Below are positions 1,878 to 63,137 of a DNA stretch of 64,000 nucleotides, piece after piece. Position 1 is the stretch's first letter, and each line of letters begins with the position of its first letter. Origin of the DNA: Eubacteriaceae bacterium (GTDB lineage: Bacteria > Bacillota > Clostridia > Oscillospirales > Acutalibacteraceae). Below the pieces are notes generated by a model. The model was not told where the DNA came from, did not search any database, and saw only the letters and a program-made list of their open reading frames with translations. The stretch lies in the NCBI GenBank assembly GCA_021770095.1, contig JAETRQ010000001.1, positions 224,930 through 288,929 of the forward strand, written 5' to 3'. The position numbers were made by a program, and so were the translations under genes.

Positions 1878-3248
1878 ATGAGTTTGAATACAAATATTTA
1901 TAATTGCAGGGACAACACAGATGAGTGCTGTACAAATAGAATTTGCTGTTGTCCCTGCAGTATTGTTGGAGCAACCGGTCCTACCGGACCTACTGGTCCG
2001 ACTGGTCCTACAGGCCCATCAAGCGGAACGCCCGGACCTACCGGTGCGACTGGTCCTACCGGTCCAACAGGTATAACCGGACCAACCGGTCCTATCGGAG
2101 CAACGGGTCCAACTGGAGCTAATGGAATCACCGGTCCTACCGGCCCTATTGGTCCAACTGGGGCTAATGGAATTACAGGTCCGACAGGGAACACAGGTCC
2201 TACCGGCCCTACTGGTTCTACCGGCCCAATGGGTGCAACCGGTCCGACTGGTGCTAATGGCATAACAGGTCCTACCGGACCTACCGGCGCAACAGGTGCA
2301 ACAGGCGCTAACGGCGTAACAGGCCCTACCGGACCTACTGGTCCAACAGGTGCAACTGGTAATAATGGTGTTACAGGCCCTACTGGACCAACGGGTTCAA
2401 ACGGCGAGGCCGGTCCTATTGGCCCTACTGGTCCTACTGGTGCTAACGGTGTAACCGGTCCTACCGGTCCGACTGGCCCAACGGGTGCTAACGGTGTAAC
2501 CGGTCCTACCGGTCCTACTGGCGCGACGGGTCCAAACGGTGAGGCCGGTCCTATTGGTCCTACCGGTCCAACGGGTGCTAACGGTGTAACCGGTCCTACC
2601 GGACCTACTGGACCTACTGGTGCAGCCGGTAGTAATGGCGTAACAGGCCCTACCGGTCCGACTGGTCCAACTGGTGCAACAGGCAATAATGGCGTAACAG
2701 GCCCTACCGGTCCGACTGGTCCAACTGGTGCAACAGGCAATAATGGCGTAACAGGCCCTACCGGTCCGACTGGCCCAACTGGTGCTACCGGTGCAACAGG
2801 TCCTACCGGCCCAACCGGCCCTGAAAACGGATTAGATGCTTATGGCGGAGTATACAGCACTGCACCGCAAACATTGAATCTTACTATTGGCGGAACAACA
2901 CAAATTCCTATGGCTTCCCAGATGCCGGCAAAAGATGTAACCTATACACCTGCGAACAGCATAACCATAACGGAGGCCGGCACTTATGAAATCAATTATT
3001 CCAGCACACTGTCAGCAGCTGTGGGTACAACCGTAACACTTGCTGTGCGCCGTAATACTGTTAACATTCCGAGTACGGTTATTTCCCGCGTTCTTTCAGT
3101 AGGTGTCGGATCATTGTACAGTGGCAGCACAATCATCACACTGAATGCAGGCGATGTTATTGACATGGCTCTATCCGCACTGCTTGCTGTCGGTATAACC
3201 CTTGGAAGCGGTGTTAACGCAACATTGACCGTAAAAAAACTGAACTGA
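1878..3248 (+). CDS. Collagen-like (G-P-T repeat) surface protein with Cys-rich N-terminus and BclA-like C-terminal domain
   Basis: Long uninterrupted Gly-X-Y repeats ([10 protein letters not shown]...), N-terminal [20 protein letters not shown]-terminal beta-rich domain ([25 protein letters not shown]...LTVKKLN); GGAG-type RBS. Confidence 0.9.
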
Positions 3249-11368: not shown

Positions 11369-12361
11369 TTACTTGTTAAAGCATACTGCATAGCCATCAA
11401 AAGAGGCAGCATAAATCTTATCTTTCGTTACACATACTTCACCTAAAACTGCAGAACCAACAGAATACTTTTTCAGTAAGTCTCCTGTATGAATATCAAC
11501 AGTATAAATACAACCGTCATTCGCTCCGAATATCAGAGTATCACCATCCAATACAGGTGATGACTCAACTGTTTTCGAGTCTTTGTTTTCACAATTAAAT
11601 TTGCAATCTGTAAAATTCTGTGCAAGCTTGTTGTATATTTCCGGAATATCCACAGGATTTGTAAATGCCGTATCTTCCATAGTGTTAAAATCGCCAACTG
11701 AAAAAACAGGACAATTATATTCATCGGCTATACTGTTTACAAATTCAATCAACTCATCTGCCTGACTGTGCATAACTGCAGTAAGTTCTTCTTCGCGGCT
11801 TTCACGAAGCAAATCAAAATGCGTATTTGTCACTGCAAACTGCTTCCCTGTTGCTTTAACTTCAAACACTGCCCACACAACACGCCTGAGCCTTGGATTG
11901 TCTTTTTCTTTGTATGCAAAGTTACCGTTTTCAACAACATCAAGTGTATCGGCATTATAAAGCATTGCCGTCATTCTTACAAATGCACCCGTTGTAAACG
12001 GATAAAGCATTTTATAACCCTCAGGCAGATTGTTATTGACACAGCAGTACCATTCATCGCACAGTTCCTGAATCCCCACAACATCAGGCTTATAACTGTT
12101 AAGAATTTCAACATACTGCTTAGCACGCGGCTTTGCCGGAAGTCCGCCCCAGCTTTCGTAATGCACAAGCAGGTTTGAGGACATAATTCTCACATCGGCA
12201 GTATTATCAAACACATCTGAAGACAATTTTTCTTCAAACCCATCCGGCAGGCTGACCTTTTTCAGATTCCCCCTTGCTGAAAACACTGACAAGGGGACAA
12301 TCGTTACAATCAGACCAAAACAAACAACCGCAATAATAACTGTTTTTAAAGTTTTACTCAT
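11369..12361 (-). CDS. Truncated endonuclease/exonuclease/phosphatase (EEP) domain fused to a PQQ-like beta-propeller fragment
   Basis: EEP motifs RIMSSNLL, VVGIQELCDEW, VTNTHFD, VGDFNTMEDT; after residue ~261 switches to PQQ repeats (SSPVLDGDTLIFGANDGCIYTVDIHTGDLLKKYSV...KIYAASFDGYAVCF). Confidence 0.75.
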   Translation of the reverse strand: MSKTLKTVIIAVVCFGLIVTIVPLSVFSARGNLKKVSLPDGFEEKLSSDVFDNTADVRIMSSNLLVHYESWGGLPAKPRAKQYVEILNSYKPDVVGIQELCDEWYCCVNNNLPEGYKMLYPFTTGAFVRMTAMLYNADTLDVVENGNFAYKEKDNPRLRRVVWAVFEVKATGKQFAVTNTHFDLLRESREEELTAVMHSQADELIEFVNSIADEYNCPVFSVGDFNTMEDTAFTNPVDIPEIYNKLAQNFTDCKFNCENKDSKTVESSPVLDGDTLIFGANDGCIYTVDIHTGDLLKKYSVGSAVLGEVCVTKDKIYAASFDGYAVCFNK

Positions 12362-59674: not shown

Positions 59675-59830
59675 AAAATTTGCTCACAAAAAATATAAAA
59701 TACGCGATATTTTACCAAAACTAAGTTGCTGAAATACCAAAGATTGATTCTTGCGATTATTCTATTTTGGGAATATAATAGATTCAATATCATACCGGAA
59801 CATAACGAATTCAACCGAAAGGAGAATCCT

Positions 59831-60901
59831 TTGAAAACAACCGATTCAATCTACAAACAACTACCCGATACACTCTTGCCCTGGTACAAACAACATGCAC
59901 GTAACCTTCCTTGGCGACAGGACACCGATCCTTATCATATCTGGCTTTCGGAAATTATGCTGCAACAGACACGTGTAGAGGCAGTACGGACATACTATCT
60001 TCGTTTTTTAAAACAACTTCCCAACATCCATGCTTTGGCTGAAGCACCGGAAAACCAACTGCTTAAACTGTGGGAGGGGCTTGGCTATTATAACCGGGCA
60101 CGCAATCTGCAAAAAGCGGCACGTGTGATTGAAACACAATATAACGGAATTTTCCCGAATCAATACAAAGACATCCTTGCTCTGCCCGGTATCGGTCCCT
60201 ATACTGCCGGTGCCATTTCTTCTATCTGTTTCAATCAGCCTTATGCTGCTGTAGACGGTAATGTACTGCGTATTATCACACGTATGACTAAAAATGATGC
60301 TCCGATTAATCAACTGCAAACGAAATCCGAAATCGCCGCACAACTTGAAAAGGTGTATCCGAAAAAAGATTGCGGGGCATTTACACAAGCGTTAATGGAG
60401 CTGGGGGCAATGGTTTGTACACCAAAATCGCCCAAATGTACAGAGTGTCCGGCAAATAAATTCTGCCTCGCATATATGAACAATACGGTGCTGCAGTATC
60501 CAATCAAAGAGCCGAAAAAGGATAAGCGTTTGGAGGAACGTACTGTCTTTTTATTGCAATGTGAAGACAGATATGCCCTGACTAAACGCACCGAAAGCGG
60601 TCTGCTTTCCGGTTTGTGGCAACTGCCGAATGTAATCGGCAATATGGATATTGAGCATGCATTGCATACTGCCGATACCTTTGGCGTTCAGCCTGTGGAA
60701 TTATATAAGCAGATGCAGCGTGTTCACATCTTTACACACATAAAATGGCAGATGACCTGTTATCATATTCTATGCAGCAAAAAAACATCTGATTTTGTTT
60801 GGGCTACTGCACAGGAAATTCAAACTACCTATGCACTGCCGACTGCATTCCGTATTTTTTTTGATTTCCATCACGAAGCCAATAAAACAGAAAACCGTTA
60901 A
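59831..60901 (+). CDS. mutY: A/G-specific adenine glycosylase
   Basis: LPWRQDTDPYHIWLSEIMLQQTRVEAV, LPGIGPYTAGAISSICFNQPYAAVDGNVLRIITR, Fe-S CTPKSPKCTECPANKFC; likely TTG start at 59831 with AAAGGAG upstream. Confidence 0.94.
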   Translation: MKTTDSIYKQLPDTLLPWYKQHARNLPWRQDTDPYHIWLSEIMLQQTRVEAVRTYYLRFLKQLPNIHALAEAPENQLLKLWEGLGYYNRARNLQKAARVIETQYNGIFPNQYKDILALPGIGPYTAGAISSICFNQPYAAVDGNVLRIITRMTKNDAPINQLQTKSEIAAQLEKVYPKKDCGAFTQALMELGAMVCTPKSPKCTECPANKFCLAYMNNTVLQYPIKEPKKDKRLEERTVFLLQCEDRYALTKRTESGLLSGLWQLPNVIGNMDIEHALHTADTFGVQPVELYKQMQRVHIFTHIKWQMTCYHILCSKKTSDFVWATAQEIQTTYALPTAFRIFFDFHHEANKTENR

Positions 60902-60956
60902 CCAACAGAAGAAAATGAGGCAAAAGCCTGTCTGTCAAACATCATCTGTCTGCTTT

Positions 60957-62047
60957 CAGTTCATTACAATATGTTCAATATTAACTGACTGATTTTCTTT
61001 TTCACCTGTAATCGTAATCAAAGTACCGCCTGTTTCCTTTGCAAAATTCCAAGGCACAGGTGAAGGACCTGTTTTAAGACCATATGTATAAGTAATTCCG
61101 TCATATGTAATACTTGCATTATTCTCGTGATCGTGACCGCAAAAGATGTACTGTGTTGAACCAAGTTATTTGCATTTATCTACAAAGCCCGATTGAACAG
61201 GTGCAGCACTGGGGAGATACTGACAATATCCGAATCCGTATTCTTCAGGAATTGTATAGGAACCGTCCTCTTCCTGTACTCCATATTTTTCTACAGCATC
61301 GTGAAATTCAGGCTGAGCAAAGTGTGAAAAGGTCATAGATGGTACTGTTCTTCCTGCTGCATTTTCAATACCCTTAACATTCCATTCATACCATGCAATC
61401 TGCTCATAACCCATATAAACTTCTTTTGTATAAGTTTCATTTGCTTCGTCAAGATACTTAATATACCGTCCATTATCAAACATAAAGAGCGAATAAACAG
61501 GATTACTGTCTTCTGTAATATTGATTACATAATTGCCGCAGCCGTAAAGATTGGACGGACCTTTCTGCATCAGGCAATACTCTGATTCCATATATTTATC
61601 TGTCTGCCAGTTCAGTGAATTTGTTGGTATTTCATTATCATGATTACCATAAACAGGCGCCCATGGAATTTTATAGTTATCCATATGCTTAATAAAATTA
61701 TTTATTGAAAATCGGCTTGCAAATGCAGACAAAACATCACCCGGAAGTACAATCAAATCAGGCTGTGTTTTTTCAACCAGTGCGTCCATCTGCTCATAGC
61801 ATTCTTTATTTTTGCCGAGATTTGCCCAAAGCTGCGTATCTGTAAACATAAGAATTTTAAAGTCTTCCCTATCCTTTTCGACTGTCTGAATTTTTGCAAT
61901 ATCAAACGTCTGATCTGCACTCCAAATTTCAATATGCTTTTTGCCGGTTAAAGGAAAAAAGAGTATTCCCGCGATTACCAATACAATGGCAAGCAATATA
62001 CATATGGCTGCTTTTACAATTTTAATTATTCTTGTTTTTTTAGTCAT
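60957..62047 (-). pseudogene. Metallophosphoesterase gene interrupted by one in-frame TAA (61166-61168)
   Basis: ORF ends ...GFVDKCK*, but the same frame continues LGSTQYIFCGHDHENNASITYDGITYTYGLKTGPSPVPWNFAKETGGTLITITGEKENQSVNIEHIVMN* to 60957, including the conserved GHDH motif. Confidence 0.88.
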
Positions 62048-62216: not shown

Positions 62217-63137
62217 TTAATTATAAAATTTATTTTGCAGGAAACGGATTCTCGTTTTCATACTTCTGATAACAATACTGCTCTTTGACGCCATTTCAAA
62301 ACCATGAATCGTGTTTTTTGTTTCATTCAGTATAACCGTATTTCCGGCCGTTCTCAAAGCATTTGCATATTCAACACCTTCATCATGCAAACAATCAAAT
62401 TCTGCCGTTTCAATATATGCTTCGGGCAAATCGGATAAATCTGCTGATTCAATAGGTGAAGCATACCGTATCTTATCCTCATCACTGCCCTGCAAATATA
62501 AATTCCACATTTTTTCAGATAATCGGCTGTTCCATATAGGCGTATCCGTATATTTTTGCATTGATGAGGTTTTCATCCGCCTGTCAATAACAGGATAAAT
62601 AAGCATCTGTGCGCATGGCTTAAACAAATTGTTATCTCTTGCCATAAGTGTTACAGCAGCCGCAAGATTACCGCCTGCACTGTCACCTGCTATAGTAATT
62701 CGCTCTTTGTCAACACCCAATTTATCGGCATTTTTTATAAGCCATTCCAATCCGCTGTAGCAGTCATTAACAGGAATGGGATATGCATTTTTCGGAGTTA
62801 AACGATAATCCACCATAAGCACTTTACATGGTGTTTGCATACAATACTGTTTAACAAGCCTGTAATGATACGGTGCTGCCTTATAAATGAAACCGCCGCC
62901 ATGGTAATACACCATTGCAGGAACATTTCCGCTGCAATTTTTAGGTTCATAAAACAGAGCATCAATTTGTCCGTTTGCAACATCAATCGTATGCTTAGTC
63001 ACCTTAACCTGTTGGTCTGAATGTTCAACTTGCATAAAAATCCCCAAAACCTTTTCGGCAATCGGTGAAAAAGCCTTAACAATCGGGAACGTCATAAACC
63101 GAATATATTTGAAATCCTTGCTTATATTATACTTCAT
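62217..63137 (-). CDS. Alpha/beta hydrolase (HSL-type esterase)
   Basis: VYYHGGGFIYKAAPYHY, DYRLTPKNAYP, TIAGDSAGGNLAAAV, HGFEM. Confidence 0.9.
   Translation of the reverse strand: MKYNISKDFKYIRFMTFPIVKAFSPIAEKVLGIFMQVEHSDQQVKVTKHTIDVANGQIDALFYEPKNCSGNVPAMVYYHGGGFIYKAAPYHYRLVKQYCMQTPCKVLMVDYRLTPKNAYPIPVNDCYSGLEWLIKNADKLGVDKERITIAGDSAGGNLAAAVTLMARDNNLFKPCAQMLIYPVIDRRMKTSSMQKYTDTPIWNSRLSEKMWNLYLQGSDEDKIRYASPIESADLSDLPEAYIETAEFDCLHDEGVEYANALRTAGNTVILNETKNTIHGFEMASKSSIVIRSMKTRIRFLQNKFYN

Follow-up and report, generated by a model that had tools for sequence, protein, structure and literature searches.

Probable recent nonsense mutation in an accessory, membrane-anchored calcineurin-like metallophosphoesterase gene

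The window, that is, the whole 64,000-nucleotide stretch of DNA analyzed, carries near its end a metallophosphoesterase gene whose reading frame is interrupted by one stop codon. The locus comprises the following features.

61166..62047, minus strand: truncated metallophosphoesterase ORF, 293 codons plus TAA (from translation, the PF00149 profile, alignment, and a structure model)
61166..61168, minus strand: in-frame TAA stop, found in none of the orthologs examined
60959..61165, minus strand: 69-codon in-frame tail with the GHDH ligand motif (residues 304 to 307) and the C-terminal strands
60956..60958, minus strand: original terminal stop, TGA
59726..60901, plus strand: MutY-type adenine glycosylase, convergent neighbor
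62217..63137, minus strand: alpha/beta hydrolase (Abhydrolase_3), upstream neighbor on the same strand as the metallophosphoesterase

Minus-strand translation confirmed the single in-frame stop at 61166 to 61168 that was reported in the first-pass annotation, and a search of the whole frame found exactly one TAA inside it. The same frame continues past the stop, as had been proposed, but for 69 codons rather than 68, and the final TGA, previously placed at 60957 to 60959, lies one base away. The tail reads LGSTQYIFCGHDHENNASITYDGITYTYGLK...EHIVMN and includes the peptide ITYDGITYTYGLK. It aligns end to end with ortholog C-termini, which rules out a frameshift, in agreement with the earlier reading, as well as a second lesion in the tail. 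A match of the tail to CBM77 was below the curated cutoff and is contradicted by the full-length alignment. The 293-amino-acid ORF has an N-terminal membrane helix at residues 3 to 30, followed by the first part of a calcineurin-like domain in which the DTQ, PGD, GNHD, and SHFAQPE motifs are kept. A whole-genome search found the metallophosphoesterase locus once in the 2.39-Mb, 53-contig draft; no second, intact copy was found in this genome, and its other PF00149 proteins are distant.

A scan of bacterial genomes yielded 54 loci, the nearer of which were aligned. The closest of them belong mostly to uncultured gut-type Clostridia (Eubacterium sp., Ruminococcaceae, and Oscillospiraceae). Twenty-seven full-length or near-full-length orthologs, about 47 to 88% identical, are all open across the TAA position, as is L042, a 242-residue fragment (residues 118 to 363 only) that spans this position and was counted apart from the 27. 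At the column occupied by TAA, every relative that exceeds about 70% identity has Glu, encoded by GAG or GAA, and below that level the residue varies among Glu, Ala, Arg, and Asn. No stop was seen at this column among the orthologs examined; the window stop thus falls at a codon where they remain open, as in a nonsense pseudogene. A natural C-terminus at VDKCK, which the first-pass annotation had named as a finding that would speak against a broken gene, was rejected, since no homologue terminates there. Two candidates for further damaged copies were also set aside: L033 is open throughout its main match and changes frame only close to the N-terminus, on a short contig, and L050 lacks its N-terminal part near a contig start and was left out of the decay count. 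A single substitution, for example GAA to TAA, had been suggested as the origin of the stop. This fits the GAA codon of L042, but most other close relatives carry GAG; moreover, dS is about 1 or more versus relatives, so that synonymous sites are close to saturation and the exact, single-change last step is one that we infer only.

The 293-residue part matches PF00149 (E = 2e-8) over profile positions 1 to 72 of 191 only, with a score of 35.3 bits that places it within the family (cutoff, 21.5 bits). The calcineurin-like motif set D..GD..GNH[DE]..H..GHxH is complete across the read-through frame and in orthologs, with DTQ as the first motif. The histidines of GHxH are metal ligands in known superfamily members. 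In this protein the GHDH motif lies after the TAA and is absent from the encoded product, while it is invariant in 29 of 29 aligned sequences; the short ORF does lack an active-site motif, as previously stated, and a part that is essential by its conservation in relatives is lost beyond the stop. GHxH is also part of the published metallophosphoesterase superfamily signature (PMC8366450).

A confident structure model was obtained for the read-through frame, with TAA treated as Glu for folding only (pLDDT, 91; pTM, 0.89). Its best solved matches are metallophosphatases, namely, zebrafish dimetal phosphatase (2nxf), Lmo2642 (2xmo), purple acid phosphatases (pig, 1ute), and Rv0805 (3ib7), with E values down to 3e-9 and TM-scores of about 0.5, and the modeled frame is accordingly assigned a metallophosphatase fold. 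It shares with these calcineurin-like proteins both the fold and the motif order D..GD..GNHD..H..GHxH, although it is only 11 to 15% identical to the nearest solved structures and its first motif is D-T-Q rather than D-x-H. A phmmer search of the PDB with an intact ortholog returned no sequence match. Unlike superfamily members, the window copy has no GHxH, owing to the stop, and a product that ends at residue 293 is missing the five final strands of the model. Without the GHDH metal ligands and these strands, the 293-residue product should, as judged from sequence and model, be inactive, and it is probably unstable; for the intact enzyme, metal-dependent phosphoesterase activity is predicted. 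The retention of the four N-terminal motifs could be taken to mean that the 293-residue protein is a functional shorter form. However, no aligned relative departs from GHDH, the truncation removes the C-terminal strands of the model, and no homologue ends at the residue 293 position, which makes this the least probable reading that we considered.

The tail bears no mark of age. Its dN/dS versus the four nearest orthologs is 0.02 to 0.05, similar to that of the core (0.04 to 0.07) and to values for intact ortholog pairs, which indicates that the tail has been under strong purifying selection like the rest of the gene. Only one tail residue in the window is unlike near relatives, a number equal to that in L022 and L042, and no excess of changes or decay after the TAA was seen in comparison with near relatives. 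The undecayed tail therefore implies that the stop is either very young or not real, and an intact signature of selection is equally expected from a sequence error. A sequencing or assembly error, or a base from a minority strain in the draft consensus, with the real gene intact, is in fact the main rival to a recent loss-of-function allele; the 53-contig state of the draft and a fully conserved tail free of a second lesion both suit it. We nonetheless consider it unlikely. Errors at single bases are generally uncommon when short reads are assembled, as may be the case here, and an internal stop occurs in none of the 14 PF00149 stretches of the genome, although the match of this gene itself ends before the TAA.

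Purifying selection on the tail would also be expected if the TAA were read through or recoded, with full-length enzyme made at a low level, and a survey in which dN/dS stayed below 1 for many in-frame stops in bacteria (PMC7918605) could be counted in favor of this. According to the same survey, in-frame stops persist only briefly (PMC7918605), and a young stop would show a conserved tail anyway. Programmed read-through is further expected to conserve the stop, whereas this TAA occurs in no ortholog. Neither a suppressor tRNA nor a downstream RNA element was found: none of the 40 tRNA genes detected has a UUA, CUA, or UCA anticodon (the set is incomplete in this draft, as it contains no alanine or isoleucine tRNA), and there was no RNA structure in the 100 nt after the TAA, which are less structured than shuffled sequences (z = +2.2). 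A recoded genetic code was rejected in view of the absence of a matching tRNA among those detected and of other genes here, which terminate at TAA in the ordinary way. Stop read-through, one of the four options listed in the first-pass annotation, thus found no support, and we regard it as highly improbable. Still less probable is its extension, in which low-level UAA read-through would make the stop tolerable and keep a trickle of surface phosphoesterase, as a way of controlling expression that arose recently in this lineage. No functional recoding is needed for a young nonsense allele to match the picture given by the survey.

The metallophosphoesterase gene is accessory in the genus, since a long match was found in just 12 of 79 other genomes. 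The MutY neighbor is common to the window and L042, with the metallophosphoesterase gene convergent to mutY in both and 83% DNA identity on either side of the gap between the two genes, and it therefore marks the locus; many other relatives hold the gene elsewhere. It directly follows a PF01663 phosphodiesterase-like lipoprotein gene in L022, L031, L032, and L056 (the L032 member was clustered by BLAST only and has no Pfam match of its own) and directly precedes GH35 in L023, L024, L028, L030, L031, and L056, with GH35 one gene further in L025. Genes for GH2, GH95, a GH101-like protein, and AraC regulators lie near it in several relatives. The gene is in many relatives part of a glycan-degrading operon. 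The order PF01663 phosphodiesterase-like lipoprotein, metallophosphoesterase, GH35, with GH2, GH95, or GH101-like genes close by, recurs across L022 to L032 and L056 and is possibly an uncharacterized phospho-glycan module. The recurrence of the intact family beside a surface phosphodiesterase and GH35 suggests that uncultured gut Clostridia use an uncharacterized phosphoesterase when they forage on host glycans. No GH35 match was found in the window genome, and the phosphodiesterase has only a 34%-identical relative there. L042 is likewise without a close GH35, yet its visible part (residues 118 to 363) is intact.

Given the intact tail and the absence of the stop from every ortholog examined, a recent nonsense mutation or strain polymorphism is the best supported of the four options in the first-pass annotation. 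We think it likely that the stop is a true and very recent nonsense mutation, whether fixed or still polymorphic, and that it knocked out this membrane-anchored calcineurin-like metallophosphoesterase, the product of an accessory gene. With translation halted after residue 293, the product would have neither the C-terminal strands nor the GHDH loop with its metal ligands. The intact enzyme may be a cell-surface phosphomono- or diesterase. In relatives whose loci include a type I phosphodiesterase/nucleotide pyrophosphatase-like lipoprotein and/or GH35, it would contribute to host O-glycan foraging by helping to process phosphorylated glycans or nucleotides. The window gene stands alone, and because the genome lacks a GH35 partner, its loss would cost little, in line with a presumably relaxed need. 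The orphan state by itself does not force loss, since L042 remains intact in its visible part without a close GH35. We read the mutation as an ordinary case, the first step in losing a dispensable, orphaned enzyme. It resembles bacterial nonsense pseudogenes and short-lived in-frame stops (PMC7918605) in its single in-frame stop, intact tail, low tail dN/dS, and absence from relatives, and we found no difference from the ordinary nonsense pseudogenes surveyed there. Its significance is small beyond the annotation of the 293-amino-acid ORF, which is a probable pseudogene rather than an active enzyme.

A decayed remnant of the metallophosphoesterase gene was also recovered in the rumen MAG hRUG903 (L053, 8001 to 8289), with the N-terminal part missing and a stop and a frameshift in the rest; one contig of the same genome (G063:C35) holds GH35 fragments and a partial phosphodiesterase gene. 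With this remnant, the gene is seen to have been lost repeatedly, and the window copy would represent an early stage. Elsewhere in the window, a 330-amino-acid ORF (11369 to 12361, minus strand) matches a family of 314- to 321-amino-acid proteins in relatives over residues 1 to 264 (47 to 65% identical), while its residues 259 to 330 match, at 60%, the C-terminal 72 residues of a separate open frame of 703 residues in another genome (G024) that combines a metallophosphatase with a beta-propeller. From these matches the ORF looks like a deletion fusion and would count as a further sign, the second, that genes are decaying in the window. A relative of this protein (L131; G004:C147:7080-8000) has one TAG inside the matched frame. 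At 1878 to 3248 on the plus strand, the window also encodes a collagen-like GPTG repeat protein with a BclA C-terminal domain.
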